Source: Buxus sempervirens
Taxonomy: Eukaryota; Streptophyta; Magnoliopsida; Buxales; Buxaceae
Assembly: GCA_947561395.2 (NCBI GenBank)
Contig: OX387187.1
Location: 25,091,829-25,155,828 of the forward strand
Length of the DNA: 64,000 bases
Direction: 5' to 3'
Shown here: positions 14,038-64,000 of the stretch, piece after piece
Position numbering within the stretch: the stretch's first letter is position 1
Layout of the letters: every line of letters begins with the position of its first letter
Made by a program: the position numbers and the translations under genes
The notes under the pieces: model-generated
The model's database searches: none
The model's input: only the letters and a program-made list of their open reading frames with translations
What the model was told of the DNA's origin: nothing

Positions 14038-16308
14038 TGTGAGACATGGGAAAAAATCACCGGAGTGATCGTCCCTCCGTCAACACACGGGCTCAACGCA
14101 AAAATTGGGAGAGTCGCCACCATTCATGATTTTGGGGTGAGAATGGACACCAAAGAGTTCAAAAATAGGCAAAATGGCCAAAAGAAACATTCTAGGGTAA
14201 AAATAACCCCACTTGAAAATAAAATCCAGAGATGGGTAAGGGGATTAGATTATGAACGGGGGAAGGTGTTAGGCACCCCCATTCATCCACACGAAGTGGT
14301 TGCCAAGTGTATGTTCATGCAAAAAATAAAGTAAGAAAGCTTGCTAAAAATCATAGAAAACCTTGAAAAAGGATTAATGTATGATATTTTCACATGAAGA
14401 TCTAAATGGATTTTAGATCCTCTCTTATGTCAATATCACTTCTGGAATATCTCAAAGGATGGAAATCAAAGTAGAGGTTGCATAAAACCAAGTTAAATCA
14501 AATCCGGAAAATTCGGTAAAAAGTATGCCATTTGCCTTAAAATCATTCAAATCCAATTCTAAATTGACCCAAACCAAATCCATTTGAAAGATTAGGGTAA
14601 ATAAGAGTCTCATACAAAATTTCACTTCATTTCGATGAAAAATCTAGGAGTTATGCTCCTTTGAAGTTGCTGTTGGGGATTTTTAAAAGTGGTAAGTGGG
14701 CAACTTTGGAAAATTGTCTAGAAAAATACACTACATATAAATCCGTGAAATTTGGTGTGATTGAAGTCTGTATGGCCATCTTTCAACAGAAACTAGCCTC
14801 ATACAAAAATCCCTTCGGGTGTGCCTTGGGTGGTCTCCCGAACAGGCCCCGAAGATCACAGATTTACCCAGAAAAATGCAAATGAGCAGTTCTGAGTAAA
14901 TCGGCTACCAATAATTCAAATGGAATCCAAAAATTATGAAACCAACTGGATTTGAAAATAGACTCAAAAAGGAGTACTCAGAAATAAAAACCACTCGAAT
15001 CGGACTTAAAACGAACACATGGCGGTCCGTCGAAGTCACAAGTTCTGTACTTGGACCTGAACTGTCCACTTAACTTCGACAGAGAGGTGTCAAAAATCGG
15101 CTAGATAGAAATTCATGAAATTTGGTGGACATAAACTAGACAGCCTCACCTTTCCCATGGTTCTGGAATCGCCCCAAAATTCATCCGGATGATGAAGTTA
15201 CGGACGTCCGAAGTAAGGGTACAGGTGCTGTCAAGCTAAGCCACTTTTAAGTAAAACCAAGTCCGAAAATTGATAAAAATGAAATTCGTGCAATATGAAC
15301 ACAAATGTTTTAAAATCATCCGAAAGGCATTTCAGAATTGATTGAGGTCATTTATTTGAGTTTTATCACAATAAATGCAATAAACCCCAAATATGAGCCT
15401 ACCCCGCCAAAATAGTGATATGTGTGCAAAAGTGAAAAAACCAAGCAAGATCCATACACATGCATATAGATTCAACAAAATAGGTTCTAGCATAGCCTAG
15501 GGTTCCGTTCCATTATCGTTTCCCTCTGTTCTCTTTAAGATAATCAAGGGTACTTTGAATATGGAACGGTTTACAATCAATCAAAAAGCCTTATGCTACA
15601 TGGGTTCTAGCACTAGGGTCAATCCCCAGTCTCGTTTCTCCTAGATCCGCCTTCACGTTTTACGGCTAGGGGAGTCTTGAGATACTTTGAGCCGGGGAAG
15701 GATTTCCACACATACAAACAAGGCTTTACACTACAGAAAGGTAGAAGAAGAGATCTAGATCTAGGAATGTAAAGACAGAAAATAAAAAGAAAAGTTGAGG
15801 CTTACCTGAGTGCTGGAGGCGATTCCACAGCGGTTTTCTTCTTCTCTTGGAGTTCTTCTTTGCGAGAATTCAAAACAAGAGTTGTGTGCCATTTGCTCAA
15901 GGAGGAGGCTCCTATTTATAGGCAAGGGCTAAGGTCATTGGTAGACACAAACTAATGTCTAGAACCCCTCAAACCTAAACCCTAAGGTTATTTCCGCGAT
16001 TTCCCCTCATTTAATGAGGGACATGATGGTAAAAGTGAAAACCTCTCGGAAAACCCTAATTTTGAGCAAACTTAAGGTATCCGGTACATCAGGCCGGATA
16101 ACAAAGTGCCTTAAGGTATCCGGTACATGGTACCGGATACGCTAAGGATCACACGTATCCGGTACGACTATCCGGATACGGGGAGGAGTACTTGTATCCG
16201 GATACTCTATCCGGATACAGGTAAAAGTTTATTTTCTTCAAATTCTGTGCTGGCTTTCCAGGAGATAATGATTTTTGATGATTGTTTGTGCAATTTGGGG
16301 TGTCTACA
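14038..16308 (-). repeat. Element A 3' LTR (left copy)
   Basis: TGTGAGACATGG ... GGGGTGTCTACA, 2,271 bp, nearly identical to 34,365-36,635. On the minus strand it starts TGTAGACACCCC. TATA box TATAAATA (minus) at 15,913-15,920. Palindrome cluster at 16,077-16,219, about 160-300 bp upstream of that TATA box. A block around 14,262-14,300 (ggtgttaggcaccccc…catccacac) is shared with LTRs B and F near the same LTR end. The 89-codon plus-strand frame at 14,065-14,334 exists only because both LTRs are identical and resembles nothing I recognise. Confidence 0.95.
16077..16219. promoter_or_regulatory. Palindrome cluster, element A left LTR U3
   Basis: Four ~25-bp interrupted palindromes with arms (G)TATCCGG and CCGGATA(C) and 8-11 bp centres, separated by 15-25 bp. 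The second and fourth have longer matched arms (GTATCCGGTAC…GTACCGGATAC-like and GTATCCGGATAC…TATCCGGATAC). The identical cluster is at 36,404-36,546 in the other LTR. The position upstream of the LTR TATA box suggests a regulatory role (inference). Confidence 0.8.
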
Positions 16309-16322
16309 ACTGCCCCTCTTTG
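16309..16322 (-). promoter_or_regulatory. Polypurine tract of element A
   Basis: On the minus strand CAAAGAGGGGCAGT immediately precedes the 3' LTR (TGTAGACACCCC). A purine-rich run abutting the 3' LTR is the usual plus-strand primer site of LTR retrotransposons. Confidence 0.75.
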
Positions 16323-16719
16323 TGGGAGCTGCGAAGCAGTGAGCTGCAAAGAGTAGACAAGCCCAAATTGCATTCCCTTGAGCATGATTTGCTCGGTTTA
16401 ATTCAATTTCTGTAGAAAACCATTTTTGAGTGGAGATTTGCCAAAAAGCCCTCACTTTAAGGGGGCATCTCTCCAAGAGTTCTTAAATTCCACCGAGCCC
16501 TTTGTGGCTGTGAAGTGGATTTTAAGCCCAAAAATAGGGTTTTTGAAAAACTGATTTTTTTATCAAACCAAGTTGAAAATTGAGTGGATATCATCCTTTT
16601 GACCAGGCACATTTCCCAAGGTTGTCCTAAATTCCACAGAGCTCTCGTGGCTGTGAGGTGGATTTCAAGACAAAAATAGGATTTTGAGAGAAAATAGAAG
16701 TTGTAGCACAAGTTTGCTT

Positions 16720-16850: not shown

Positions 16851-16851
16851 G

Positions 16852-16915
16852 GTATCCGGTAGGTGTATCCGGATAATGAAGGCTCTGCGGGTATCCGGCC
16901 TGAGTATCCGGATCC
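16852..16915. promoter_or_regulatory. Palindrome pair upstream of antisense gene 1
   Basis: Two units with TATCCGG/CCGGAT arms. The second has the centre CCTGAGT (GGCCTGAGTATCCGG). They lie about 30-100 bp before the GC-rich, UTR-like sequence that leads into the spliced antisense gene. I could not find a clear TATA box between them and that sequence. Confidence 0.7.
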
Positions 16916-16949
16916 CGCATGTTTACTTAAGTCGCGCGCGACCGCGACT

Positions 16950-18076
16950 TTTCATTTCTTTTCTTCAGTCTCCGACAACTCAGACCGGCCATCTCCTTCT
17001 TCTTCTTCACCCGACGACTCGTCCTGCTTCTCCGGCGAGCTCCAGCAACTCCGGCGACTCCTATTGCTGCCGGCGACGTCCTGCGACTCCGGCGACTTCA
17101 GTGATCGGCCATTGACAGCTGCAGTCGAGCCCTAGCTCGATTTCTTCCCATTTTCGGGGGTTCTCTCAACCCAATATCATTGTCTTTGCTCCGGTGATCT
17201 TCTTTGAACTCCGGGAATCCAATTTCACTTTCTCTATTGCCCATCAAACAGTAAGTGCAACTGGGCATCTTTATGTATTTTCTTGTTCATGCCGAATTGC
17301 CACTTGTTCTATGAATTTTCTGTTAATTTCATCTGATCACTTACTTCCCCTAGGCAAGAAGGATTCAGACCTTTCATTTGCTATTGAATTCTTGGATGAA
17401 CCATTTTCGGCCTAGTTCTTTGCTGCTGAAACTTTTCAGACTTAATGCCTTGTGCTTTGCTATGATCATGATTTCTTTCTTCTTTTGTGGTATCCTTGAA
17501 TTAATGCTATCTCAGAATTTTGGACTATCTGCTGCTGATATGAACTGATGATTTCCTGTTGCTCGCATGCCAATTTTGTATGTTAGAACAAACTTTGCTT
17601 TCCTAATTTGGTGTTGCCACAATTCTTTAGAACTGTTCCTGTGCCAATCCCCAATCGGATGGTTCACGGTAGGCTTTTCCAGCCTTGATGCCACATCTGT
17701 TTTTCTGGTCTTGCTCCTTCTTGATGTATGTACTAACTGCCAGTGGATTTACAAGCTTTTGCTTACTCCCCCTTTTGCTATGAATTTTTCTTAATTAACT
17801 GTCCAATCTGGATTTCTGCAATTCTGCTTGCTTTTGATGCCTTGACCTTCCCGCTTCTCATATCCTGGAACCATAACATACAGGAAATGTTAAGTATTGT
17901 AGGAATCTTTTAGAAAATGTTTCAAGATTAGAAACAGAAATATTCCTCACTTCAACACTTTAGAGGTAACTTAGGTGAGGTAAAATTCCCATAATTTCGA
18001 AAAATAATCATGTAAAACTAGATATGCACCATAAGCAAAGCCAACTTTGAAATTTATAAAACACTTCCCTGTGTAG
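16950..18076 (+). other. 5' UTR exon and leader intron of antisense gene 1
   Basis: 16,950-17,250 has the C/T- and CTCCGGCGA-rich look of a plant 5' UTR and ends at a strong donor (ACA|GTAAGT, 17,251). An acceptor (CTGTGTAG) ends at 18,076, directly before the ATG at 18,077. The implied leader intron is 826 bp. The transcription start is an estimate. The open frames within 17,194-17,794 do not connect to anything. Confidence 0.55.
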
Positions 18077-20758
18077 ATGGCTAGGGGTCGTTCCCGAGTT
18101 AGAGAGGAGGTTGACCCAGCTGATCAGCCCTCCAGTTCGCGGGCTCGGACAGAGGCGAGCTCCAGTGCCACCTTGTCTGAGCCATTGGATGTCTCTCGAG
18201 AGAGCTCTGCTGAGGTAGGCTTTCAAAATTTTTTTTTTCTTTCTTTCTTCCTTGTACAAATCTTCACGCTGTTCCTTTGCAATTCAGCCCGTGGTTGCAC
18301 CCGCTCGTGGTCGAGGCCGAGGCAGAGGCCGGGTTCAGGATCAGGCCCCTGAGGGCGAGAGAGGCCGTGTTAGAGGCCGAGGCAGAGCCAGATATATGGC
18401 TCCGGAGGGGGTTGCTGTAGCCCTTGCAGGAGTTCCTGAGGAGTTGAGGGCCTCTGTGCATGATACAGAGCTCCTCCATGGCTTGGATAGCCATCCTTCT
18501 ATGTGCATCCGGGCAGATGTGCCGCTTCCCTATTATTCCTCCCACTTACGAGGTAGCTGGGGCAGATTTAGTGATCTAGCTCAGTCGCTTTCTCCAGCAC
18601 TCAGGCGGGAGTTTGGGAGGTGTCATCTGGATCACTTCCTCAGCATTCCATCATTCAGAGCCGACCGTCCACTCATCTTTGCCATGATGGAGAGATACTT
18701 TCCAGAGACACAGTCGTTCCACCTGCCGGACGTGGAGCTGGGGATCCGCCCCTCCGATTTTGTGATGATTACTGGCATTCCTCTGACGGGGCGGACCATC
18801 GTCTTGGAGCGGCCTTCTGCGGAGGATATGGGACTTCTCCTGGGATATCAGGCCCTGCCTCCTACTGCTTGGGATGGGCGGAGTGGCCGGCTCTCCATTA
18901 GTTGGTTGCGGGAGAGTCTGGCTCGACATTTTGAGGGGAGGCACAGGACTGTGGCTGTGGATGATGCTGCATTTATTCCTATCTTCCGGCACGTATTCCT
19001 GCTGATGCTTGGGAGCTGCTTTTTCCCGGAGGATACGACCGGCGTCAGCCCACTTTTCCTGGATGCTTTAAGAGATCTCCATCAGACCCGCCAGCTAGCA
19101 TGGGGTCGGCTCATTTATGGGACCACCTTGGCCGGGCTGTGCCGTGCAGTTCGAGGTCTGGCATCCCCGAGAGGCGATGGAGTTAGCAGCCGGTTCTTCT
19201 GGCAGATTCTGCAGGTATTGAATTCATCTGTCTGGCTTAATTCCTTAGGCTATATCTTTTCTTGACTGATTTTTCTTTTGCTAGGTGTTCATGTACACCT
19301 ACATGACCTTCTTCCGACCCTCCCCGGTACCTGAGGTTGCGGATTTCCCTGTGGCCCTGCGATGGTCGGCCCAGGTTCGAGATGCCGATAGGAGCCAGCC
19401 TCGTACCGCTCGGGTGCACTTAGACCGTGCACGCCGATCTGATGTAAGTCCTCTATCTTTTTTCTTTTATTTTCTTTCCTGTACCTTGACTGTATCTGAC
19501 CACTTTGCTTCTTTGCAGCTCATTCTATCCCGTCCAGATGACGTGGATGTCGGAGTCGCCCGTGAGATGGCAGTACAGGATGCTTTTGAGCGAGATCTCC
19601 GACGTCAGTCTTACCAGTGCTTCCTTGGGAGGCTTGGTAGGGTGATGTACTTGGGAGAGCGCCTGTACTACCAGCACACTGGCGCACTTCGCAACCCCGT
19701 CCCTCCTCCTGCTGTGGGTCCCGACACACTCCTCCCGGGCTTTGATGTTGATCAGTTCGATCACTTCTTGGATGCGGAGGGGCTTACAGTAGCTGGAGAT
19801 TATGACGAGTGGTTCCAGCGGGTGTCTATTGGATGCTTGATGGATCGACCCACTCGTGCTAGGGTGACTGAGATTGGCGGGATCCGTATCCGGATCCATG
19901 AGGACACGGTAAGCCTTGTATTCTTCCCATTTTTATCCTCTTTTCCTTCCTTATGCCTTTTTGACCATGCTTCCGTTCTTGCTGGCAGGTACACGAGCTG
20001 AACTCCATTCGGGACCGGTTCGAGAGCCAGCGGGCTGCGATCGATGATATGATCGCGGAGCACGATGCGGTCGTGGCCCAGCGGGATGCCCGGATCAGGG
20101 AGCTGGAGGCCTTGGTTGCTGAGCTCCAGGCTAGACAGGTACTTGGCCTTCTTATATGTTCATTTCTTTCATTATTTTTCTGTTTCTGCTATTCTGATAT
20201 GCTTGTTTGACTTGTGCAGGGCCCGGTCCATGATCAGGATGCCTTCTTTGGGCATGATTTCCTGATTCCTGACCCATCTCCTGCCCGGGCCTCTGATCCC
20301 GAGGATGCCCCAGTGGCTGGTCTTGACGAGCCGGATCCTCCTGCTCCTTCTGCAGACATTCCTGGTATGATCTTCTTTTTATTCTCTTCTTTTATTCTTC
20401 CTTATATCTGAATCTTCTGATTTTTCTCTTTTCTGTGGACTCAGCTACTTCTGATCCTGGCCCCTCTGCTGCGGATGCTGGGCCTTCTGGAGCTGCGGGA
20501 GTAGAGGATGCTTTGGATGAGGGCCCAGTTGGGCCGGTTGCTGCTGAGCCCGAGACTTCTTCTCCAGATTCTACTCCTGCTCCTCCCCCGGATCTCGAGG
20601 ATTATTGCTTGGAGTATCATCTTCAGCAGGTGGTAGGTCGGCATCCTCGCCATGCGGCCGAGCGGATTCTTGCCTACTCTAGAGGCCGGGCCCTTTGGGG
20701 GAGACGCCGTAGAGGTGGACGCGGCCGAGGACGCGGGGATGATCCTGCACAGGAGTAG
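18077..20758 (+). CDS. Antisense gene 1: PMD (MAIN-like) protein, 7 exons
   Basis: Exons inferred from GT-AG borders with continuous phase: 18,077-18,214; 18,288-19,214; 19,285-19,443; 19,519-19,908; 19,989-20,138; 20,220-20,364; 20,445-20,758, giving about 740 residues. The N-terminus is RG-rich (ARGRGRGRGRVQ). The core resembles the plant mobile domain found in MAIN/MAIL proteins and many transposable elements (FLSIPSFRADRPLIFAMMERY, then SFHLPDVELGIRPSDFVMITGIPL). A short coiled coil follows (exon 5), then an acidic/proline-rich stretch and an RGG-like tail (GRRRRGGRGRGRG). It lies inside element A opposite to gag-pol, where Tat elements are known to carry antisense ORFs. All seven exons are open, so the gene looks functional. 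The biochemical role of PMD is unknown; Arabidopsis MAIN/MAIL1 affect transposon silencing and genome stability. Function here is inference. Confidence 0.8.
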
Positions 20759-20964: not shown

Positions 20965-21105
20965 GTATCCGGTCTGACATACCGGATACATGGATTGGTC
21001 TTTGTATCCGGTATGTTATACCGGATATTCATGGGATCCTTTGTATCCGGTATACTTATCCGGATATTACCAAAGCCTTTGTATCCGGTCTGAGTTACCG
21101 GATAT
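20965..21105. promoter_or_regulatory. Four-palindrome cluster before antisense gene 2
   Basis: Four ~25-bp units with arms GTATCCGG / CCGGATA(C/T), spaced 35-40 bp start to start. The last has the centre TCTGAGTT. The cluster ends about 12 bp before a TATA box (21,118), tightly upstream as in a promoter. Confidence 0.8.
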
Positions 21106-21117
21106 GTTAAAAGATGC

Positions 21118-21124
21118 TATAAAT
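21118..21124 (+). promoter_or_regulatory. TATA box of antisense gene 2
   Basis: TATAAAT, directly downstream of the palindrome cluster and 112 bp before the ATG at 21,236, leaving a plausible ~85-bp 5' UTR. Confidence 0.65.
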
Positions 21125-21235
21125 GCAACCAGTCTCGGGATTTGGGCATTTTTTTACGAGTTTTTGAGTTTAGAAACCCCCTTTTCCGCCTTTTTCTTCC
21201 TCCTCTTGAGTTCTAGCTTGCTCCCGTCAAATCCA

Positions 21236-22952
21236 ATGGAATCCGGATCATCTTCTGCCCCATTATTGTCTGTCCACACTACCTCCCCTGCAAAACAGCC
21301 TTTTAGATCAAAACCCCCAAATCTCACTAGGTACAACCCTGTGGATTCCTTTTACACCAGGTGGGTTAACTCTATGACCCTAGATGAGGAGAGGAGATGG
21401 GGTACTACTAACCTAGGCCATACCCTGCTCATTCCCAAGGTTCCCTTTAAGTGGGAGATTATAGAGGCCATGATTGGTCATTGGGTTCCTGATCTCAACT
21501 TGTTCCGTTTTGGGACCCATGAGATGACCCCAACCATTGAAGAGGTGGAAACCATCCTGGGCCTGAGGTTTGATGAGAAGGTGGTGAATCCACCTCTTAG
21601 GCCCAGTTATAAGAAGGAAGCTTCTACTTTTTTGGGCATAGGGAAGAAGGACTTGGGGGATTCTGACACCCTTTTGACCCTATCTAAGGCTTTTTTGACT
21701 GAGAAACTTTTGAGGGGAGAAGATAAGGAGGCCCGATTCAATGCCTTGACCTTGATTGTGGTCAACCAATTACTTTTCCCACGGGAGGATGACGAGGTGG
21801 ACTTGGCCTTGATTTCCGTGATATGCCAGGTTCGGGAGAGGGAGAGGTTGGCCCCTATGATTTTAGCAGGGATGTATCAGGCCTTGACCGACTGCTACAA
21901 CAGGAAGTCGAAACGCTTCTTAGCATGTGCCCAGATCCTGCAGGTAAACAAGTTTTTTTTTTTCTTTCTTTTTCTCTTTTTCTTTTTTCTTGCTTTTTGG
22001 CCTTCTTTTTGCCTTTTTTTTTTTTTTTTTTTTTTTTTGTACAATGTGCTGACACCTCTCTCTTCCTTTGCAGCTTTGGCTACTTGATCATTTGAGCCAG
22101 ATTGAAGAGATCAATCGACACTTCTTCCCGAGTCTGAAAGTCCCTTTGTTGATGAGCAACAGGGGGTGCCCCGATATTTCAGGGGGCAAACAGGGCTGGT
22201 TCACCTTCTTGGGCTCGCTTCAGGATGACCAGGTGAGATGGCCTGGTACTTATCAGCCCAATGCGGAGACAGTGATTAGCTTCCGTGACCGCAACTTTCT
22301 GATCCTAGCAGGCCTAAAGCATGCAGTGCTTTATCTTCCTCTGCGGGTCCTTCGTCAGTTCCGAGCGACCCAGGGGATTATCATCCCATATGGATACGAG
22401 GATCGTCTTGGGCCTCTTTCTATGAAGCTGAATGCCTGGTTGATGAAGGAGTGGTCTTATGTCCGCTTTATGCATGGTCCTGTCTTCTCGGAAACCCATG
22501 TGAAGGATTATTTCTTCTGGATCAAGGAACAGATACAGACTCAGGCCCCAGTACCCGAAGATCCTCCTGTAGTCTTGGCTCCCATCTATGAGGACATTCT
22601 AGAGTATGAGCGGGCTTCTCATAAGCGGCTTCAGCAGATATGGGTACGGGAGGCCCAGGAGCTCAGGATACAGAGTGCTTATCTGGAGAGGCAGCTTGAT
22701 GAGCAGACCTCACGCCGTATTGCCGTGGAAGAGAAGCTGGAGGAGCAGAGGCAGGCCCGTCGCTTCGAGGTCCGTATGATCCGGCAGAAGTACCAGGATA
22801 CTTTGGCCAGCCTTAGGAGTATGAGGATCCAGCAGGCCCTTTCAGATGAGGTCATTTCCTTCCTGAGTGATCCCGCTGCAGAGGGGGCTTCAGGAGTCAT
22901 TGCAGCTCAGGCAGCTCGGATTCGGGAGCTTGAGGAGCGGCTAGGAGATTAG
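21236..22952 (+). CDS. Antisense gene 2: PMD-like protein with coiled-coil tail
   Basis: Two exons, 21,236-21,943 and 22,074-22,952, joined across a T-rich GT-AG intron (CAG|GTAAAC … TTTGCAG) in the same phase; about 528 residues. The ATG at 21,236 is chosen because upstream sequence in that frame is the palindrome block and TATA box. Residues ~40-330 show a second, different plant-mobile-domain-like region (LTLDEERRWG-type start, then RFGTHEMTPTIEEVETILGL). Residues ~390-528 are predicted coiled coil (ERQLDEQTSRRIAVEEKLEE; AARIRELEERLGD). It is convergent with pol of element A, with stops 0.93 kb apart. Both exons are intact. Similar antisense genes occur in Tat/Grande-type elements; no function is established. 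Confidence 0.8.
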
Positions 22953-23884: not shown

Positions 23885-25918
23885 TCAAGGAAAATACCTT
23901 TTTACCGCATCAGAGTTAATGGGCTCAGGAAAATCTGACCCATCCATTTCTGCTAAGATGAGTGCACCCCCTGATAGGACTTTCTTGACGACATATGGGC
24001 CCTCCCAATTGGGTTTGAACTTACCACGAGGGTCTTCCAAAAATGGTAAGATTTTCTTTAGCACTAAGTTTCCTTCTTGGAAAGTTCTGGGCCTCACCTT
24101 CTTATTGTAGGCCCGGGCCATTCTCTTCTGGTACAACTGTCCATGGCAAAGTGCTTTCAACCGCTTTTCTTCTATCAGGTTAAGTTGATCATGTCTCGAC
24201 TGGACCCATTCGGCTTCTTCTAGCTCTGCTTCCATGAGCACTCGGAGTGAGGGGATCTCTACTTCCACGGGCAAGACTGCTTCCATCCCATAGACTAGGG
24301 AGTATGGGGTTGCCCCAGTTGAAGTCCGGATCGAGGTTCTGTATGCATGCAGAGCAAGTAGCAGCATTTCATGCCAATCCTTGTAGCTCACTACCATCTT
24401 CTGAATGATTTTCTTTATGTTTTTGTTTGCTGCTTCTACTGCCCCATTCATCTTTGGCCTGTACGGAGCTGACTTGTGGTGGGTGATCTGAAACTGCTCA
24501 CACATTTTCTTCATGTCCTTGTTCTTAATATTTGAAGCGTTGTCTGATACTATGGCACTTGGCAGTCCATAGCGACAAATAATGTTGTGCTTCAAAAATT
24601 TAATAACATGGTTGCTAGTGATGTTTGCATATGAGGCTGCTTCAACCCATTTAGTGAAGTAGTCAATCGCCACCAGGATGAATCTGTGCCCGTTCGATGC
24701 CTTAGGGGAGATCATGCCAATAACATCTATGCCCCACATAGAGAAGGGCCAGGGTGATGTCATGTTGTGCAGCTCACCTGGGGGTGCATGCTTGTTATCT
24801 GCATAGATTTGGCATTGATGGCACCTCCTGACATGTATACAGCAGTCACGCTCCATGGTCGTCCAGTAGTATCCCAGCCTCAGGATCTTCTTAGCCAGCA
24901 TGTGCCCACTCATATGGGGCCCACAGACTCCTCCATGTACAGTCTCAATCAGCCTTTCCGATTCAGCCTTGGCAACACATCTGAGCAGAATGTCGTTATG
25001 TGACCTCTTGTACACATGTCCACCACTTAGCAGAAATTGACCAGCCAATCTCTGTATTGTCCTCTTCTCAGTAGCAGTGGCATTTTCTGGCAGACTCCGA
25101 TTGTTCAAGAAATTCTTGATATCTTGAAACCATGGTGTTTCTTCTTCTGGTGCTCCCTCTAGAACGAGACAGTAAGCCGGTTCATCTCGGACCTCAATTT
25201 CCAGCGGTCTGATGTCTACTCCTTCTAGTATGCTGACCATTGAAGCTAATGTTGCTAGAGCATCCGCAAACTGATTCTTGGCCCTTGGCATATAGTTGAA
25301 GGAAATTCGAGTGAAATTTGTGCTTATTTCTTCCAAGTACTGGTGATAGGGGATCAATTTGTGATCCTTGGTTTTCCACTCACCAGTTGTTTGGAAGATG
25401 ATAAGACTCGAATCCCCATATACGTCAAGTTCCTCTACTCCATGATCCATGGCTGCTTGCAATCCAATTATGCACGCCTCATATTCTGCTATGTTATTGG
25501 TGCACTGGAATCTCAGTTTTACTGCAATCGGGATATGTGAACCATCTGGTTTAACCAAGACTGCCCCTATTCCGTTCCCATTCATATTGGCGGTCCCATC
25601 GAAGAACATTTGCCAAGAACTCTCACTGTCCTCCTCTTCAGTGTACAGAATTGCCTCATCTGGGAAGTTGGTCTTCAAGGGTTGATATTCTGGCAAAGGA
25701 TGTGCAGCCAGGTGATCAGCTATGGCTTGACCCTTGATCGCCTTCTGGGTGATGTATGTGAGGTCAAATTCGGACAGTAGCAGTTGCCACTTTGCCGTCC
25801 TGCCAGTCAGTGCCGGTTTCTCAAATAAATATTTCAGAGGGTCCATCCGGGATATTAATAGTGTGGAGTGACTAAGGAAATAATGCCTTAGCCTCTGAGT
25901 GGCCCACACTAGAGCACA
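23885..25918 (-). CDS. Element A pol, C-terminal block: RNase H, aRNase H, integrase
   Basis: The frame continues the reverse transcriptase block after one in-frame TGA (25,919-25,921). Order: end of the ancestral gypsy RNase H (WATQRLRHYF), then a second RNase H of archaeal type (MFFDGTANMNGNGIGAVLV; NNIAEYEACIIGL; DSSLI) at residues ~95-225, then integrase with an N-terminal HHCC finger (CHQCQ), catalytic D (WGIDVIG, ~390), D (IVSDNAS, ~455) and E (NGAVEAANK, ~490), and a GPY motif (WEGPYVVKKV, ~635). No chromodomain follows. Two RNase H domains are diagnostic of the Tat clade. Product: RNA removal during reverse transcription and DNA integration. The SDNAS sequence lacks the usual glycine after DN. 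Confidence 0.92.
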   Translation of the reverse strand, partial: CALVWATQRLRHYFLSHSTLLISRMDPLKYLFEKPALTGRTAKWQLLLSEFDLTYITQKAIKGQAIADHLAAHPLPEYQPLKTNFPDEAILYTEEEDSESSWQMFFDGTANMNGNGIGAVLVKPDGSHIPIAVKLRFQCTNNIAEYEACIIGLQAAMDHGVEELDVYGDSSLIIFQTTGEWKTKDHKLIPYHQYLEEISTNFTRISFNYMPRAKNQFADALATLASMVSILEGVDIRPLEIEVRDEPAYCLVLEGAPEEETPWFQDIKNFLNNRSLPENATATEKRTIQRLAGQFLLSGGHVYKRSHNDILLRCVAKAESERLIETVHGGVCGPHMSGHMLAKKILRLGYYWTTMERDCCIHVRRCHQCQIYADNKHAPPGELHNMTSPWPFSMWGIDVIGMISPKASNGHRFILVAIDYFTKWVEAASYANITSNHVIKFLKHNIICRYGLPSAIVSDNASNIKNKDMKKMCEQFQITHHKSAPYRPKMNGAVEAANKNIKKIIQKMVVSYKDWHEMLLLALHAYRTSIRTSTGATPYSLVYGMEAVLPVEVEIPSLRVLMEAELEEAEWVQSRHDQLNLIEEKRLKALCHGQLYQKRMARAYNKKVRPRTFQEGNLVLKKILPFLEDPRGKFKPNWEGPYVVKKVLSGGALILAEMDGSDFPEPINSDAVKRYFP

Positions 25919-27472
25919 TCAAGTCTTCTCCAATGGTGAGTATTTGGCTTCATATTCTGTGAATTTTTTACTCAGATAGTAAATTGCCCTTTCTTTTCTA
26001 CCAGTCTCATCATGCTGCCCCAAGACACATCCCATTGATGTTTCCAATACTGACAAGTACAGGATCAGTGGTCTTCCTGGAGTTGGTGGCACTAGCACAG
26101 GCGGGTTCAGCAAATACCTCTTTATTGTGTCAAATGCCTGCTGGCAATCCTCATTCCAGACCGTCGGGTTATCCTTCCTTAACAGCTTGAAAATTGGTTC
26201 ACAGATAGCAGTGAGCTGTGCTATGAACCGGCTTATGTATTGAATTCTTCCAAGAAACCCCCTGACCTCCTTCTCGGTTCTGGGTGCTGGCATTTCAATT
26301 ATGGCCTTGGCTTTAGCCGGGTCAATTTCAATTCCTCTTCGGCTCACTATAAACCCCAGTAACTTCCCTGATGTAGCCCCAAAGACGCACTTAGCCGGGT
26401 TAAGCCGTAAACTGTACTTCCTGAGCCGATCAAACACTTTCTTCAGATTGATCAAGTGGTCCTCCTCTTTGCATGATTTGGCAATCATATCGTCCACATA
26501 GACCTCCATCTCCTTGTGGATCATGTCATGAAATAGTGCAGTCATGGCCCGCTGGTATGTTGCCCCAGCGTTTTTAAGCCCAAATGGCATGACTGTATAG
26601 TGGAATGTGCCCCAAGGCGTGATAAATGCTGTTTTCTCTTGATCCTCCTTAGCCATCTTGATCTGATTATATCCTGAGAAACCATCCATGAAGGAGAACA
26701 GGCTATGTACCGCAGTATTATCGACCAGAATGTCGATGTGTGGAAGCGGAAAATCATCCTTTGGGCTTGCCCTGTTTAATTCTCTATAATCCACGCACAT
26801 TCGGACCTTCCCGTCCTTCTTTGGTACTGGCACTATGTTTGCTAGCCACTCTGGGTACGTAGAGACTGCCAGAAATCCAGCTTGGAACTGCTTGACCACT
26901 TCGTCCTTGACCTTTAAGGTCCATTCAGGTTTCAATCTTCTCAGCTTCTGCTTAATCGGCTTAACCCCTGGCAAAATTGGCAACTTGTGCACCACCATGT
27001 CAGTGTCCAACCCCGGCATGTCCCGATACGACCAAGCAAACACATCCTTGTAATCTGCCAAGAACTGTGACATTTCATTTTTCTGCACATCAGACAAGCA
27101 TGACCCGATTTTCACAATTTTTGGGTCCTCTTCGGTCCCAAGATTTATGGCTATGGTCTCCTCAATATTAGGTTGGACCCCCTTTTCATGACGTTCCAAT
27201 TGGTATTCAATTTCTTTTGGAACGTCTTCTTCTTCGACCTCGGTCTCTTCTTCGACCCCCATGAGATCAAAGTCGAGCTCGAAGTCGAAGTCATATTCAA
27301 CCTGGTCCAATTCGGTCTGATTATACGGTTCATAAGTGGTTTGGACCTTTTTGAAAAAATTAAATTTTCTAGAAAAAATAGAAAAATCTTTTTGGGTTTT
27401 TTGTGGGCCTTCTAAACATAATTCCCCTGAAGACGAAGGCCCATTAGAACCTTCAGGGAAATGGCAATCCAC
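25919..27472 (-). CDS. Element A pol, N-terminal block: reverse transcriptase
   Basis: About 517 codons. An acidic N-terminal linker is followed by Ty3/gypsy reverse transcriptase: LRRLKPEW, IVPVPKKDGKVRMCVDYREL, FPLPHIDILVD, FITPWGTFHYTVMPFGLKNA, and the catalytic YVDD at about residue 322, then LGFIVSRRGIE and the start of the first RNase H (LYLSVLETSMGCVLGQ). It ends at an in-frame TGA (25,919-25,921) inside that RNase H. It lies in the -1 frame relative to the gag-protease frame, whose TAG (27,472-27,474) overlaps this frame's first possible non-ATG start by one base. An A9 run lies 6 nt upstream of the TAG, so expression as a frameshift fusion is more plausible than independent initiation. 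Confidence 0.93.
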   Translation of the reverse strand: MDCHFPEGSNGPSSSGELCLEGPQKTQKDFSIFSRKFNFFKKVQTTYEPYNQTELDQVEYDFDFELDFDLMGVEEETEVEEEDVPKEIEYQLERHEKGVQPNIEETIAINLGTEEDPKIVKIGSCLSDVQKNEMSQFLADYKDVFAWSYRDMPGLDTDMVVHKLPILPGVKPIKQKLRRLKPEWTLKVKDEVVKQFQAGFLAVSTYPEWLANIVPVPKKDGKVRMCVDYRELNRASPKDDFPLPHIDILVDNTAVHSLFSFMDGFSGYNQIKMAKEDQEKTAFITPWGTFHYTVMPFGLKNAGATYQRAMTALFHDMIHKEMEVYVDDMIAKSCKEEDHLINLKKVFDRLRKYSLRLNPAKCVFGATSGKLLGFIVSRRGIEIDPAKAKAIIEMPAPRTEKEVRGFLGRIQYISRFIAQLTAICEPIFKLLRKDNPTVWNEDCQQAFDTIKRYLLNPPVLVPPTPGRPLILYLSVLETSMGCVLGQHDETGRKERAIYYLSKKFTEYEAKYSPLEKT

Positions 27473-30400
27473 TATTGGAGTTTTTTTTTGGAAGCCGCGT
27501 CAGTTTGCCGAACCGACGCTGCTTCAAAGGTAAGGGGAGTTTCCTCCCAATTGTTCAGTACAAAATTTTGGGGAGCAGGGGAAATAGGGAAAGCCCGCTC
27601 CTCAAGCCCAGAATCCGATGCCATCATCACCGGGTGGGTACTGCCCTTTTCTGCTACGGGGCCCAATTCAGAAATGACCTTGTCTGGAACCTTTACTGCG
27701 GCCCAGTCAATAAACGGCAGTTCCATGTCTGCCCCTGTCTTTTCGCCTTCAGTCATGGCGAAGAATGCACCAACATCCTCAGAAAAGTCCACCTGCTGCT
27801 CGGGCTGTGGTCCAAGCCCATCCACTGCTCCCAGTATTGGAGATGGGTTATAGGGTTGTAGGGCCGAAACAGAAGGCTTTTGAAATGGGTTGACATTTCG
27901 GTATGGGGGTTTGGACTGGTCCATGGGAGGAGAAATTTGGATTATGTAGGAGGGTTTTGGAAAGTTCACCCTCAGATGCGGGAGTTTTCCTTTGCTTCTG
28001 CTCTCCCCTTCTTCATATTTCATTCTTCTCCAGCCTCTGGGCTTGAAGCCCAACCCTACCTTGGGGATCAGTTTCTTAGCCGTGATTGGCTCCACCATCC
28101 CCTGCAGATTGATCCCCAGGCCTTTCCCTGGGTGAAAGTGGTATTTCTCCATCACTTTCTTGACCATTTTTTCTGCAGTGGTCCCCTTTTCCTTCTTTTT
28201 ATCACACCCCCCAGGTATGTAATTGACCGCCTCAAATTGAAACGAGTGGAATGCAATCTTGTCGACAGTCAAGTCCACATTGATTAATGGTACATCAGGT
28301 GACACAATGGGCGGCACCAAGTTTTCGGCTAGGACTGTTATCACCCTTTGCCCTCTTACATATTTCACCCTTTGGTGGAGCGTGGATGGTATTGCCCTAG
28401 CCGAATGTATCCACGGCCTTCCTAGGAGCAGATTGAATGCTGCGGGTATATCCATCACTTCAAATGTGATGTTAAAGATATTCGGCCCAATTGTGACCGG
28501 CAGTTCAATCTCCCCTAGGGAGTGGGTCTTGGAGCTATCAAAAGCCCTCACTATCCGCCCATTCCGTTTGATCCTTGACTGGTCCAGGCCCAGCTTGGTA
28601 AAAGTGATTAACGGGCAAACGTTTAATGCCGACCCGTTGTCAATTAAAACCCGTGCAACCATGCAGCCCTTACAAAGCACAGTGATGTGCAAAGGGTCCA
28701 CATGATAACACCCACCTGGGCTGATCTCACCCTCTGAGAAACTTATCACATTATGTGACAAGATTTGACCAACCATTTTACCAAGCTGGTCTGGATCAAT
28801 TGTCTGGGATACGTGTGCACTCTGTAGCACCCTTAACAATGCATCCCTATGCTTTTCGGAATTCAGCAAAAGGCCCAGTATTGAAATCTGGGCCGGGACC
28901 TTGTTCAGCTGATCCACAAGATTGAATTCACTTTTCTTTATTATTTTTATGAGGTCGGCTGCCTCATTTTCTGCACCCTGGTGGGTGTCTTCTCCTATTT
29001 TATTTTTTCCCTTCTGTTTTCTTTTTTCATTTTCTTTTTCTTTTTCTGCTTCTGTCTCCTTTTCTTTCTCTTCACCCCCTGCACATCTCCCTGACCTCGT
29101 CATGAGGTTCACCTCCTCCTGGTTCTGGTTCCTGACCATTGGAACCGTAGCCGTGATTCCCTCGCTGTAGTTCCATGGTACAGCGGCCTCTGAATAGGCT
29201 AATTTAGGGATGTCAACCACTAGTGGCTGGAGTCTGGACCGGGATGTATGGGCCGGTTTAGGGATAGTATGGGCTGGCTGCACATTTACAACCAGGGGTT
29301 GAAGTTTGGATTTGGTGGGGACAGAAGAAGTGATGGAAGCAGTGGTGGGGTCAAGATTGATGACCAGTGGAGCCTTAGACGGCTTGGATGGAGAATAAGT
29401 GGGTGGACTGCAATTGAAGACCAATGCGGGCCTTGCAGTATTCATCTGGGCCATGAGTGAAGAGACCCGGTTTAGAGAGGAACTTATGTCCTCAGCAGCA
29501 AGATTATTATTTTTTTGAGAGACCATGTTGATCTCCTCCTCTTCCTCTTCTGGGAAAAATCGGACCTGGACTGTAGTCCCCACAGGGGCTATAAGCTGTG
29601 ATGGGTCAAAGGCCCTTCTGGTGGTGGATATGGCCGTGATGGAGTTGGATGGGCCTGCCCCATTGTGGTAAAGCAGAGGATTCTGCCCAATATCATTCCC
29701 GGACGGGGCCGGTGCAGCAGTGTTGAACACCAAGGCCTTCTGGTCCAACAGGTCCTGGACCGCATGCTTCAATACCCAGCAGGTATCTGTAGAATGCCCC
29801 GGTGCACCCATGTGGAAGTCACAGGTGACCGATGTGTCAAAATTTCTTCCCCTGGTGGCATTCGGGTTAGGCTCCTTCAGAGTCAAGTATTCCCCTTTCA
29901 GCAGGGTTGGCAGTAGTTGGGACAGAGATATGGGTAAAGGGGTGAAAACCCGGTTCTTTCTTGCTGCGAACCAGGCATCCCGCTCCTCCTTAGAAAAAGT
30001 CCTCCTTGTGTTAGCTGGCACAGAGGGAGGGAAGTTGACATTCAGCGGGGTCTGGTACGACTGCTGGGCCTGCTGGGCCTGTTGGGGTGTCGAGATGTTG
30101 ACGTGCAGTGGCTTCTTGGCTGGAGGAGCCTGGACCAAGTTCACCTCCCCTTCTTTTCGGGCCCCTGTCTTTTTAAATCCGGCCCCTTTCTTTTGGGCCA
30201 TGGAGGCCGAGGAATCAGACTGCCCAGCCAGAGTAGAGTAGTCTATCAGCCGTCCTGACCTGACCCCTTCCTCGATCCGGTCCGCTACCTGTACCAGGGC
30301 TGCAAAGTTGGTGGTGATCTGGCCCACCAGATGGTTGTAAAAGGGCTGGCCCAGTGTGCCCATAAATGTGGAGATCATCTCCGGCTCTTGCATAGGTGGC

Positions 30401-32844: not shown

Positions 32845-32988
32845 GTATCCGGTATAACATTCCGGATAATAATATGCCTTATTGTATCCGGTTACCATAA
32901 CCGGATTCATGCATATGCCTTTTTATCCGGAAATATATACCGGATATGATTAGAGCTGTTATTAACCGGCCTGAGTTGCCGGTTATTG
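32845..32988. promoter_or_regulatory. Palindrome cluster in element A leader
   Basis: Four units: three with TATCCGG/CCGGAT arms and a fourth with the changed arms TTAACCGG / CCGGTTA and the centre CCTGAGTT. It is located in transcribed leader, downstream of the 5' LTR promoter. Confidence 0.75.
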
Positions 32989-34362: not shown

Positions 34363-34364
34363 GT

Positions 34365-36635: not shown

Positions 36636-36640
36636 ATGGG

Positions 36641-36749: not shown

Positions 36750-36754
36750 AAAGG

Positions 36755-37388
36755 TGTCTGCCAGGTCCTTCCATCCTCTAATCTTCCCATGGTCAACTGT
36801 GGCAAACCACCTCAGAGCAGCTCTAGTCAAACTCCTTTGGAAGAGCTGGATCAGTATGCCATCATCTTGACCGAATTGGCATAGGGCCCCACAGTACAAC
36901 TTCAAATGGCTCATGGGGCAGCCCATGCCATCATACTTGTCAAAGTCCGGACACTTAAATTTTGCCAGTAAGCTTACGTCGGGGTATAGACACAAATCTT
37001 CGAAATTGGTGCCTCCAAAGTTATTCACCCTTTTCACTTCCCTCAGTTCATCCTAAATGATTTCCAGCCTATGCATGAACTTCGTTTGCATCTCATCCCT
37101 CATTCTCTCTTTTTCCTTCTCTTTCTCAGACTCAACCGTCTCCTTCCTGATCAGTATAGGTTCAAGGGTAGGTTCAGAAATGGGTTCAGGAATAGGTTGA
37201 ACTGGAGGTGGAATGTTGGCTTGAGGTGGGGGTGCTTGGTTGGAAGTGGAGGCTTGGTTCTGGGCTTGGACTTGCTGGGCCTGCACCGCCAGTAAGTTTT
37301 CTAGCATTCGGGCAAGTCCTGCCACTTGCTCTTGTAGCTGGGCAAAGTCTTGAATAGGAACATCGGCTTGATTCCCAGTGGGATTCAT
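36755..37388 (-). pseudogene. Element B gag, N-terminal part
   Basis: Starts at an ATG (37,388) with MNPTGNQADVPIQDFAQLQ, collinear with element A's MNTEENQAQATVPAQDFTQLQ. The Gln/Pro-rich segment, charged coiled coil and gag core follow (TNFEDLCLYPDVSLLAKF, LYCGALCQFGQDDGILIQLF). One in-frame TAG at 37,053-37,055 replaces a codon in the coiled coil. The frame is then cut inside the KDLADTF motif by LTR C2, and the rest lies at 5,776-6,290. Upstream in-frame codons to 37,493 are leader sequence. Confidence 0.88.
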
Positions 37389-37499
37389 GGTGTGAGATCT
37401 TGATCTAGTCACGGGAGCAATGGTTGCAAATATACTGGTACCTGGCAAAATAAAAATAAAGAAAAATATCAGTACCAATTTGATCTCAGTCACATACCT

Positions 37500-39826: not shown

Positions 39827-39828
39827 GT

Positions 39829-47700: not shown

Positions 47701-50700
47701 AAAAGGCATAAATTCAATATTTACCATTCATACCTCTCTCTGGGAGACTCGATCTCCCCTATTTGCCCTCCGAATCCTCTAGATTTACTCCAACTCATGT
47801 CTTAAAATTGAATTGGAAGAATCTAGAAAGGAATTTTTCCCTACGCTTGGGACTTTTGTACCCTTGGCCTTGCCTATAAATAGAGGGTCTCTCTTCTAGC
47901 AAATGGCTAGAATTTGAAGCTTAAAGAACTCCTGGAGAAGAAAGGACCCCCTACCCACTCAACTCTCTTAAGCTACCAAGGTGAGCCCCTGCTCTTCTCC
48001 TTTCATTTTATTTTAGTTTTAGCACAATCTCTCCTTCTACCTTTCTGTAGTGTAAGGCCCTGGATGTGATTGTAACCCAAAACCACTTTCAAAGTACCTT
48101 AAGCACCCTCTCTAGCCATAAAACGTAAAGAGAGAGCTAGGGGAAACGAGAGTTGGAATGGATCATATCCTTAGGTTAAAACCCTTTTTTGATGATACAC
48201 TTGCATGTTTTTTGTTTTTTTTTTATGCGCTTGTTGTTTTATGTGATCTTGCTTCAAATCTGGAGAATTTACATGGATCTATTCTCTCCATAGCATTAGA
48301 TCCCAATTTTCTCCTAAAATTTTGATTTCCCACACAACCACACATACATCACTCAATTTTTGGTAAAAATAGGCACAGATCTTAGATTTATCATGTTCAA
48401 TATGGTAGATATGAGATCAGAAGCCTTAGAACAAACTCTCAGGATTTTGTGAATTGATTTCAAATGGTTTTAATCTTCTAGAGAGGACCTTATGGTCTAA
48501 TCTCTTTTATTTGGATATTTTCCATCAATTTGGGTAGATTTGGCTTTCCCTCTCCAATTAATGAGAGATTTAAGCCAAATCTATGCCATAAATGTTTCTG
48601 GATGTTTTTCAATTCATTTCAAGTGATTTCAATTCAGATCACATGGATCATTCACACACATCCACTGTTTTGTCTTGATTTTCATTAAATTTTACATATC
48701 TGGACAGAACCTGTACCCTATCTTGGATCATTCATAACTTCATCATTCGGATGAATTTTTGAATGATTCCAAAGGCATGTGAAAGGTAAGGATGTCTAAT
48801 TGTTTTTTGTAAAATTTCAGCAATTTATATGGAGCCAATCTCTACGAATAGGATTTCAAAGTTGGCCACTCAGTGTTTTTACTGTTTTATAATAGTGGAT
48901 TTCAACAAGTATATCTTCTTTGATTTTTATCGGATTTAAGTGAAATTTTACTGAGTCTTCCATTTTATATAAGCTTTCAAATGGCTTTGGTTTTATTCAA
49001 TTTGAGTTTGGATTGAGAGACTTATGATTGGTTGAGTTTTCAAAGCTTTAATGATTTAATTTTAAGCTGATTTTTCTAGATTTGCTTTAAGTTTGCTATT
49101 GTTCGAGTTTTATTTTGATTTTTTACTTGATCACGAAGTCCTAAAGGTGATACATCTATAGAGAGAGTCCAGAATCTATTGGACTACTCATATGGAAAAA
49201 TCACACATATGATTTTTTTTAAGTACTTTTGAATGACTGTATTTGCAAGCAATTGATAAGCATGAATGACATTTGGCAACCACCTTGTGTGGATGAGTAG
49301 GGGTGCCTAACATCTTCCCCTATTAATAACCTAATCCCCTTACCCAATCTCTGGATTTAGCAATAAAGTAAAGCTACTTTCAGCTCTATTATTATCTTTT
49401 ATGCACACTTTGGTGTTCATTCACACCTTAACTTAAATGGTGGCAACTCCAGTATTTTTTTAACCCCGTATGATGATTAGGAAGTCATGTAGGTGATTTT
49501 CCATGTCTCACAGGGTGAGGTTTAAATTTGAAAGTGAAAAGAGGAGTGGCATGGTGGTTATAATTTGAGATTTTTTTTTAACTTGTAGAGGGTAATTTTT
49601 GGGAAAAAAAAAAGGGAGGGCCAGAATCTAGAGATTATTCTACCCAGTTGAATTTACTAATAGTATAGATATAGAACACATGTATGTTAAAGTCAAAAAG
49701 ATAGAAGAGTTTTACTCATCTTTTCATGTCATAGGCTAAAAGGTTTTAGCAACTTACATTTCAATCCAAGACGATAATAGAAAAATAAACTCAATGAGAC
49801 CTCCAATGAAACCTCCACGTTTTTTAACAAATTAATATGGCTAATGTCATTAGTCTTTAAGTATAAAAAGGTAAATTTATCCTTCAAATTACTTATTTAG
49901 CGAGTTAAGAAAATGAGTAAAGAAAGAGAATAAGTAATTGTTTAACAAATAAATGGAAGTAATTTTGTAGTAAAGTAGAGGGCGCCCTCTACTTTAAACA
50001 AAATCAAATAAAACATTTAGTTTAATAAGGATGAGCTCTTAAAGGTGAAAGATTCGTGCAAACCTGAATGGAGGTTTCTGTAATTTACCCTAAATAGTAT
50101 GAAAACTATCAAATCAAATTAGAGCATATATCAATGGTTTGTCCAAAGAAATTTTCAACCAACCTGTACTTTAAGTTGCTTCCGAACATACTCTTCAATA
50201 AGGAGACTGGCATTTCGTATGAATGAGAGTTCAAGGAATCTGTGTCTTGTGCAATTTTCATCTTTCGAAGGGCTGCATGGTTCAATTCATTAGTATTGTA
50301 TCAGAATTTTTTTTTTTCTTCTTTATTATTTTTTTTCTGGGAAAAACTTTCCCCTTGATTTAGATATGTGTGTGCGCACAAATGTTTCATAGTTGTGATG
50401 AAATATGGAGTCCCTCCAGCTGATATGCATGTGAGCGTATGGAGATGTAGAAATAGAAAGTGTTGTAAAAGAGCCGAGCTAAGTTGAGCTTTACACAACT
50501 CGGCTTAGCCTCAGAAACCTTGGGCAAATCTCTGGCATGTCTCAAGCTTGTCAAAAACTTTTGGGCTTAGGCTGAACTTAAACTCATTAAAAATCCTTGA
50601 GCTCAGTGTATGCTCACGTAATCTTGATCATTAATTTCTAGGCTTACAAAAGGCCGACTTACAAAAAATGACTTCAACCTATTGTTTGTTTAGATATATG

Positions 50701-60912: not shown

Positions 60913-60956
<44 letters not shown>

Positions 60957-61344: not shown

Positions 61345-62714
61345 TGAATAAGTTCGAAGAAGAAAGCTCCGCACAAAGTCAGAAACCTTGTCCCAGAAAC
61401 CCCACTAAATAAAAATTAAAAATCTCCCTAAATTCCATGGATTTCGATCCAGAAACTTGATGTTACAGAGACCGGAGACTCAGGAACCACATGGGTTTCA
61501 TGCGGAAAGCTGAATTTGGAGAGAATACAGATACCAACTTCCGTATATCATGTACAATGACCTCGTTATCGATCAAACTGGGTTCATTAGGGCGATGGAT
61601 GATGAAGGAAAGAAGAAAGAAAAAGGTCAAAAGCACAAAATTTTGTAACTCCATTTAAAGGTCGGTGAGATCGTTTTGTAGGAGGGGAAGGCGAAGAGTG
61701 GAGGTGAAGAATCGAACTGCTTCGTGTTTGATTTGCTGCCATTGATGAGGCCGCACATTAGGAACGCGGGTACTGTATAACGATCCGGATAAACCCGGAC
61801 CGGGCCAGAATGATATTGTGCGGGCGTGCTGTGATCCTTCCAAGCATGCACGTTTCTTGTCTTCATCCTTCCTGCGAAGCAACAACCGTGTTTGTTTTCT
61901 TCTAAGGAACCTGAAGACCAGGGTTTATGCCACATCTTCATCTTCAAATATCAAAGATATTACAAATTGTATATGTAGGCATGCAGGTGCATCTCACACG
62001 AACATAGATACAAATCTAGACCATATATAATGGCTCTTTGAGAAGCGTGACAACAATTATGCATGACTTCTCCAAAAGCCCTAATTATTCATCGTAAAGG
62101 CATTATTAATATAGGGTTTGTAAATGACCACTTTTATAACTTGACACGTCACCCATATAATTATCTACCATGAATTATTTGTCACCAAACAAAGACAACC
62201 TGTCTTGGGTCATCTGTCACCCAACAAAGATAGCATGTCATGGGTTAGCCATTACCTAATAGAAATAATAATTAAATGTGGCATGGTTTATTTATATTAA
62301 ATGTAAAACTTATCTAGCATGTTGGAGTGGAGATCTCCGTCTTGGCGAAAGTCCACTTAAGGGGAGTTATTTGGTGGCCCTTAAAGCGTGGCTAACACGG
62401 ACATGAAGATCGTCGGCAGCCAGTGACGAGTCGTGGCATGTTTACCTAGAATGACAAAAACGTCAAGTAATCTATAGTGTCACATATTGACATGTAAAAC
62501 CCAATGTGTGCCAATTAAAGAGCTCTGTCCGCTATCATGTTAATATTTGCAAGCCTTATCTTTTATTTTATTCTTATCTTGAACCTAGACCTTTATGAAA
62601 CAAAATTTATGATAGACATGTAAACATTTCTAAAGCCTCAGATTGTTACAAGTATCACAATCCTAGAGACACATTCCATCTATAAATATGAGAACCATTT
62701 TCCATTTGAGGGCC
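61345..62714. other. Upstream region of the J-domain gene
   Basis: No recognised gene. A 63-codon minus-strand frame (61,463-61,654) starts with a signal-peptide-like run (FVLLTFFFLLSFII) and ends 120 bp before the J-domain start; I cannot match it and regard it as possible 5' leader sequence. A Helitron-like 5' end lies at 62,015-62,125 (TCTAGACCATATATAATGG), similar to 46,741-46,850. The rest is AT-rich. Confidence 0.5.
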
Positions 62715-64000
62715 TGTAGACACCCCAAAATTGCATGATTTGTTATAAATCTTGAAAGAGAGAAGTATTTTATTGGAATTTCCAATTCTTTGCATTGAGT
62801 TTGAGATCCTTAACCCATTTGAATCCAAACCGCGAAGGAAAAAGCCCGAATTCAACCTTTTGTGTAAACTTTTTCTGGTTGAATTTTGTTGACTTTTGAC
62901 CCCAGAAAATGAAATATTTTTTAAAGCAAGATTTCAAGATAATTTTTCCCGGTAATCAGGTTTTTAGCAATGTTATTGCATAAATGAATTTTTTAAGATT
63001 TTAAATCTTGACGAATACCTTGGTATTAACATATTGAACCTTTTTACTAAACCTGAAAAACCGGAATTTTGCCTTGAACTGAAAAGTTGACTTTTTATTC
63101 ACTTGGAATTTGGGTCTGGAACTATTTTTAATGGATTCAAATGGGGGGGGGGGGGGGGGGTGTTTGCTTATTTACATATAATATCTTAAGTAAATAGAGA
63201 TTAAAAAATACGATGACATTTACTTAAATGATATTACATGTAAATAAGTATTGCTTGTGTTAAAATTCAGATAAAAGCTTCTTTCCTTGTATCCGATGTT
63301 AATGTTCGGATACAAAACATCTTTATTGTATCCGACAGATAATGTCGGATACACAAAAGATATTTATTGTATCCGACAAATAATGTCGGATACAAAGAGT
63401 TTTGTTTGTATCCGACCTGAGTTGTCGGATACAAGTGTTTTGCTCAACATTAGGGTTTTCCGATAGTTTTCACTTTTTACTGTCTTATCCCTTATTTAAG
63501 AAGTGGAAATCTCGAAAATAACCCTAGGGTTAAGTGGGAGAATGGTAGACACTTCCTTGTGTCTACCATTAAGGTTCCCCCTAACCCTAACCTTTGCCTA
63601 TAAATAGGAGGCCTCTCCTCAAGCAAATAGCCAAGAATTTTTTCCAAGAGTTGGAGATTGAAGAACTCCAAGTGAAGAAGGGAAACCTCTGCCCCATTGC
63701 TTCCAGCACCCCCAGGTAAGCCTAAAACCCCTTTTCTTTTATGTTCTTAAATTCTAGAAATAGATCTTTCTTCTACCTTTCTGTAGAATAATGGCCTAAT
63801 CTGTGTGCTTGAAACCCCTTTCCCTACTCAAAGTACCTCGAGACTCCCTCTAGCCGTAAAACGTGGAGAGGGATCTAGGGGAAACGAAACTGGGAATTGA
63901 TCCTTAGTCATAGAACCCTCTTTAATAGCCTTATGTTCTGTGAAAACCGTTTCATATTCAAAGTACTCCAAAACTATCTCGAAACCATAAAAACGGAGAG
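62715..64000 (+). mobile_element. LTR E (B-like), cut by the window end
   Basis: Starts TGTAGACACCCCAAAATTGCA; the first ~450 bp are the reverse complement of LTR B's outer part. It has a G18 run (63,143-63,160), then the inverted arms 'cttatttacatataatatc…' and '…gatattacatgtaaataag' (63,167-63,249), then a palindrome cluster, then TATA box TATAAATA at 63,599-63,606, then 'ggaggcctctcctcaagcaaatagcc', as in A. The LTR end is not reached, so I cannot say whether it is solo or part of an element to the right. Confidence 0.88.
63289..63432. promoter_or_regulatory. Palindrome cluster in LTR E U3
   Basis: Four ~25-bp units with arms GTATCCGA / TCGGATAC; the last has the centre CCTGAGTTG. It ends about 165 bp upstream of the TATA box, matching the layout of element A. 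Confidence 0.8.

Follow-up and report, generated by a model that had tools for sequence, protein, structure and literature searches.

Family-specific palindrome arrays, candidate operators of Tat/Ogre-like retrotransposons in Buxus sempervirens

We analysed a stretch of 64,000 nucleotides of the Buxus sempervirens genome (assembly GCA_947561395.2, contig OX387187.1, positions 25,091,829 to 25,155,828; hereafter the window), in which arrays of short palindromes occur at the control regions of a long terminal repeat (LTR) retrotransposon, element A, and in LTRs of other families. Element A is a young copy on the minus strand; its two LTRs are identical apart from two short places. RVT_3, RT_RNaseH and integrase core domains were found in its frames, with RNase H preceding integrase, and two antisense genes, both encoding plant mobile domain (PMD) proteins according to Pfam, lie between pol and the 3' LTR. 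Based on the LTRs, this domain order and the PMD-type antisense extra open reading frame (ORF), element A can be classed as a Tat/Ogre-like member of Ty3/gypsy; in the accessible part of one account, PMD is present in 57% of Ogre elements (PMC6317226). With exon 1 of gene 2 as query, none of 1125 candidates in a protein search reached E 0.001 and a PDB sequence search gave no match, and no relative of this exon or of the integrase frame was confirmed among viral contigs. The AlphaFold model of this exon alone had a mean pLDDT of 39.6 and was not used.

The palindromic unit of element A, TATCCGGn9CCGGATA, spans 23 bp, with 7-bp arms around a 9-bp centre. As reported in the first-pass annotation of this DNA, such units are clustered at five places of the element, and units with different arms are present in LTR E and LTR B (Table 1). 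There are four units in each U3, at gene 2, in the leader and in LTR E, and two at gene 1, with a centre-to-centre spacing of 39 bp in the element A arrays (one gap of 38 bp) and of 39, 41 and 39 bp in LTR E. The units of arrays B and D are spaced by 28 bp, and some of them are decayed in both. We also detected a decayed array in the leader of element B, which the first-pass annotation had missed. It aligns locally with the U3 array of B (score of 53, compared to a maximum of 29 in 300 shuffles) and shows no match to the element A arrays in local alignment. When the U3 of B was compared with tiles of the window, array D was the next best match after the B leader array (score of 46), and the B leader array itself matched a tile near 4121 with a score of 37, above the shuffles. 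Adjacent inverted repeats with a common arm sequence form 26 pairs in the window, whereas 40 simulations gave 0.075 on average and never more than 1, which excludes a chance origin of the arrays. Ten of these pairs fall in a separate tandem repeat (37787-38360) and one in a GGGCCC-rich spot at 10733; the remaining 15 belong to A (11), B (1) and E (3). LTR F (47571-49512), whose distal U3 is related to that of E and whose more distant part is related to A, is a natural array-less LTR.

Table 1. Palindrome arrays and element A features in the window (positions in window coordinates).
Feature	Positions	Strand	Remarks
U3 array, 3' LTR of A	16078-16219	-	four TATCCGG units
U3 array, 5' LTR of A	36405-36546	-	identical four units
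Array at the start of antisense gene 1	16853-16914	+	two units, the second ending CCGGATC
Array at antisense gene 2	20965-21105	+	four units
Leader array of A	32846-32985	+	four units, with compensated arms in the fourth (TAACCGG/CCGGTTA)
U3 array of LTR B	41434-41535	-	ATACGG/CCGTAT, two clear and two decayed units, 28 bp apart
Decayed B-type array, leader of element B	38529-38625		local alignment
U3 array of LTR E	63287-63434	+	four TATCCGA units
Array D	10904-11008		GACCGCAn7TGCGGTC, spacing of 28 bp, some units decayed
Element A 3' LTR	14038-16309	-	near-identity to 34365-36636
Element A 5' LTR	34365-36636	-	near-identity to 14038-16309
gag-pol frames, element A	23885-31173	-	RT-like, RNase H and integrase domains
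Antisense gene 1, PMD-bearing frame	18267-19262	+	Pfam PMD E 2.1e-13; further exons around it, borders not set
Antisense gene 2	21236-22949	+	intron-containing by eye; first frame DUF7745 E 7.5e-18, PMD 1.2e-13
TATA-like box of gene 2	21118-21125	+	25 bp past the centre of the last unit

Counting exact patterns over the 676.5-Mb assembly, with the reversed pattern as control, gave 28,399 units of the A type against 5 reversed and 8,452 of the E type against 2. In a sample of contig 1 (20 evenly spaced stretches of 10 kb), arrays of at least three arm-sharing units occur at three loci, two of them of the TATCCGG type and one of a new type, which defines family G. With exact patterns, 8 of the 20 stretches contain at least one unit type, although three of these hold single units that may be due to chance. 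The looser G pattern, with its higher background, was found 15,414 times against 1,171 reversed. The spacing was analysed among the matches listed, all on contig 1, considering gaps of up to 160 bp between adjacent places. For A, 90 places gave 58 gaps (49 of 38-39 bp, 8 of 77-78 and 1 of 103); for E, 50 places gave 21 gaps (12 of 39 bp, 3 of 78, 4 of 117, 1 of 72 and 1 of 103); and for G, 50 places gave 17 gaps, of 23 bp (2), 28 (2), 38 (5), 56, 68-69 (4), 117, 118 and 139. Two viral contigs, L001 and L002, also matched the two-unit pattern; they are the same phage DNA with TTATCCGG repeats of a different layout, and we judged the match a coincidence.

Examination of several sites of the same element revealed that the arms differ in concert. 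In an E-type element (C1:9.628-9.633 Mb), TATCCGA/TCGGATA units are found in the U3 (4), at gene 1 (2) and at gene 2 (3), the leader being outside the sequence read. Its flanks are 67-84% identical to those of A, and gene 2 exon 1 is 81-88% identical in two pieces. Its arms show eight departures, counted by eye, each of them a C-to-T or G-to-A change as expected of methylated DNA in decay. Family G (C1:58.004-58.026 Mb) carries AACCGY/RCGGTT units in the U3 (6), at gene 1 (2), at gene 2 (3) and in the leader (3), with two more beyond gene 2; positions 58.0135-58.0210 Mb are outside the sequence read, and its status as a single element is deduced from order and spacing. Here the flanks share 65-78% identity with A; exon 1 of gene 2, still of the PMD/DUF7745 type, is 76% identical over 215 aa. 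In element B, ATACGG/CCGTAT arms are present in both LTRs and in the decayed leader array, where the neighboring leader is 79% identical to A. Identity between LTRs E and B is 88-89% for the distal U3 and 71% for the core promoter; however, their arrays do not align (score of 4, compared to a shuffle mean of 7.4). Exact unit types are mutually exclusive, with 15 A units and no others in element A, and 15 G units and none of A, E, B or D in three pieces of G. Family-specific arms, differing in concert at three to four separate sites per element, are thus strongly supported. Since the sites are separate and otherwise unrelated, a single trans-acting reader is the simplest cause. The first-pass annotation had proposed a family-specific binding site that would coordinate the LTR promoter and the antisense genes, with arms that change between families in a compensated manner. 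Its family-specific part is borne out by the concerted arms and mutually exclusive types, whereas binding itself we infer; the compensated change holds between families, but within A the arms are near invariant, with one compensated unit and some single-sided changes. All five arm types contain CCG or CGG, that is, a CG and CHG methylation site, which invites the idea of a methylation-sensitive reader. Two extra G units 39 bp apart lie in the interval that separates gene 2 from the end of pol (L047:3484-3543), and the corresponding part of A contains no exact A units.

The U3 and gene 2 arrays are located upstream of their respective TATA boxes. At gene 2, the centre of the last unit and the TATA box are separated by 25 bp in the window, and 5/5 other A copies as well as the E-type relative show the same distance. 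In the LTRs, subtracting the centres from the TATA places gives 169 bp for A, 179 for E and 214 for B, so that the equal distance described previously is only roughly right and does not extend to gene 2. By eye, no clear TATA box was seen in element A at gene 1 or flanking the leader array on either strand side, and placement at every promoter is unproven for the leader. A location at promoters would also be expected if the arrays were enhancers for dimers of host transcription factors, with different families having recruited different factors. Short palindromic sites are common for such dimers, and we take AACCG to resemble plant MYB sites and TATCC MYB-related sites. Some TATCCGG arrays moreover lie in loci that are not homologous to A, as a host factor would allow. 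However, such a factor would require a simultaneous switch at three to four sites within one element, and the isolated half-site TATCCGG does not appear enriched outside the arrays when the window is inspected by eye. We therefore regard host enhancers as the main rival, albeit an unlikely one.

Conservation within family A was analysed on copies of the U3 (7), leader (5), gene 2 (6) and gene 1 (4) arrays, including those of the window. Pairwise differences amount to 28/2744 positions in the arms (1.0%), compared to 289/1764 in the centres (16.4%) and 331/2352 in the spacers (14.1%), and to 4.1-4.7% in the 200-bp promoter-side flanks of the U3, leader and gene 2 arrays. Gene 2 exon 1 is 89-97% identical among six A copies. 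The loci L007, L025 and L026, together with the arrays in the LTRs of L013 and L021, were not part of this comparison; they show the 39-bp layout too, L026 with one gap of 103. The arrays look like diverged 39-bp tandem repeats, and the targets of VANC proteins likewise evolve through tandem repeat formation, as far as the available text goes (PMC5735166), which could suggest that gene conversion or template switching between repeats keeps the arms uniform and that they serve no function. Conversion would nevertheless even out centres and spacers as well as arms, contrary to the differences observed, and it does not account for the fixed places of the arrays at promoters; this explanation appears highly improbable.

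The perfect arms could also reflect hairpins or cruciforms in RNA or DNA (acting in packaging, as a source of small RNA or in recombination), where pairing itself would be selected, and a hairpin was indeed one option of the first-pass annotation. The compensated unit 4 of the leader, kept in 5/5 leader copies compared, is consistent with this idea. For 14 distinct A units, however, pairing adjacent to the arms is not above chance, either inside (22/56 compared to 18.7 expected, p 0.23) or outside (14/42 compared to 12.6, p 0.35), and adding four E units does not make it significant (28/72 inner pairs, p 0.11; 25/54 outer pairs, p 0.08). In the A and E units together, only the arms co-vary (124/126 paired compared to 115.9), which is the A-to-E difference. 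Single-sided arm changes occur among A copies, the arm sequence is fixed per family beyond mere pairing, and the U3 and gene 2 arrays stand upstream of TATA boxes. Selection for hairpins is therefore very unlikely, and the lack of pairing above chance outside the arms within A leads us to read the units as paired half-sites for a dimeric protein. The centre CCTGAGT(T), previously noted as recurrent, does recur in A, E and D, but with no fixed unit or orientation; TGAGT/ACTCA is present in the centre of 24/106 exact A units, 1/8 E units and 4/24 G units from the fetched loci and the window. The idea that CCTGAGT always occupies the last unit, facing the promoter, was dropped, as fetched copies show it in other units and in both orientations.

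Taking the arrays as family-specific operators read by an element-encoded dimeric protein is the interpretation that we consider probable, with an antisense PMD protein as the likeliest reader and anti-silencing as the likeliest effect. Each unit would be an inverted pair of 7-bp half-sites, to which a sequence-specific protein binds as a dimer; from the regular spacing, neighboring dimers may be in contact. The difference between the two spacings, 39 and 28 bp, is 11 bp or about one helical turn; helical phasing stays a suggestion because family G mixes spacings. If one protein reads every array of an element, the arms at the LTR, the antisense promoters and the leader must change jointly when its specificity changes. 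The antisense PMD proteins would be the best candidate binders, and the same operators at their own promoters would create a feedback loop. The likeliest effect would be to keep the control regions open against silencing, permitting LTR and antisense transcription, as VANC does for VANDAL. We infer protein binding, the identity of the reader and the direction of its effect. More tentatively, Tat/Ogre retrotransposons may possess a sequence-specific anti-silencing switch of their own, in which an antisense PMD protein binds the palindromic arrays of the LTR, of its own promoters and of the leader. Protein and operators would be replaced jointly when families split, so that each family would wake only its own copies; we see this as plausible, at somewhat less than even chances.

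Several observations weigh against these proposals. Families with largely dissimilar arms have a well conserved PMD core, which may therefore not read the arms. Gene 1 is more divergent than gene 2 (42-62% compared to 59-68% in tblastx pieces), and gene 1 or a host factor may read the arms instead. LTR F has an intact TATA box yet has lost its array. The gene 2 array of family G has no TATAAA or TATATAA within 400 bp around and after it, and the spacing in this family is mixed (23, 28 and 37-41 bp). TATCCGG arrays at L026 (1000-2280) and L044 (3060-3210) have CCTGAGTT centres, and their flanks are not homologous to A. Clusters outside Tat elements had been proposed as a refutation, and the arrays at L026 and L044:3077 may be of this kind; they possibly belong to other elements using the same reader. 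Several sites were examined in one element each of G and of the E type. As the A copies were picked by an exact arm search, their arm conservation is overstated, although non-exact units also entered. Finally, the interpretation relies on sequence data.

The closest parallel is found in the VANDAL (Mutator-like) transposons of Arabidopsis, in which an element-encoded VANC protein reads target motifs, according to the accessible portions of two reports (PMC5735166, PMC10398659). In both cases, to the extent of these portions, short repeated motifs in non-coding transposon DNA differ between related elements. Unlike VANDAL, the carrier here is an LTR retrotransposon with inverted 7-bp half-sites at near-fixed spacing at promoters, its antisense frames match PMD/DUF7745 in Pfam, and binding and demethylation would be predicted activities. 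Judged from the DNA, the arrays may function like a VANC-type system, without a claim of membership because the antisense genes encode PMD proteins. Host PMD proteins offer a second parallel. The available parts of two articles tie MAIN and MAIL1 to the DOWN promoter motif and to transposon silencing, leaving direct binding open (PMC7156037, PMC9899485); they too link PMD proteins with a promoter motif, but are host genes. The DOWN motif in its MORC1 form, CATGCAGTTT, is absent from both strands of the window. A DNA-binding or regulatory role has been predicted for the antisense ORFs of Retand and the extra ORFs of Ogre (PMC11963269, PMC6317226). In the accessible sections of these accounts, such genes sit between pol and the 3' LTR as in element A, whereas palindromic operator arrays do not appear there, and A has PMD rather than Transposase_28. 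No description of such arrays was found in titles and abstract openings of a literature covered without preprints and most subscription papers. Tat/Ogre elements rank among the largest plant retrotransposons, and the arrays provide their antisense proteins with a concrete, testable target, for which families A, E and G are built-in specificity controls. If the proposal is true, LTR retrotransposons have evolved their own VANC-like self-recognition system, with PMD proteins as readers.

Other repeats lie close to the arrays. A different palindrome, AAGTCGCG/CGCGACTT, directly follows the gene 1 array of A (16929-16950), and similar GCGACCGCG stretches come after the gene 1 array in both the E-type element (L051) and family G (L044). 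The leader of B contains a tandem repeat with a 36-50 bp period (37777-38377), every copy of which is a TCTGAAA/TTTCAGA palindrome of 7-9-7 shape. These palindromes (37787-38360) were kept apart from the array family for their period inside the B leader repeat, although they may belong to it. On the minus strand, a D-type unit (L049:349-369) is located about 200 bp upstream of a Tat-like TATA region, which hints that type D, too, may belong to Tat-like LTRs. The frame at 46329-46700 presumably resembles a plant N-methyltransferase of coclaurine type. Element B seems to lack both antisense genes, the corresponding region being about 0.8 kb long compared to 6.6 kb in A, and its gag is apparently split (5779-6293 and 36757-37484) by about 30 kb of insertions, element A included.

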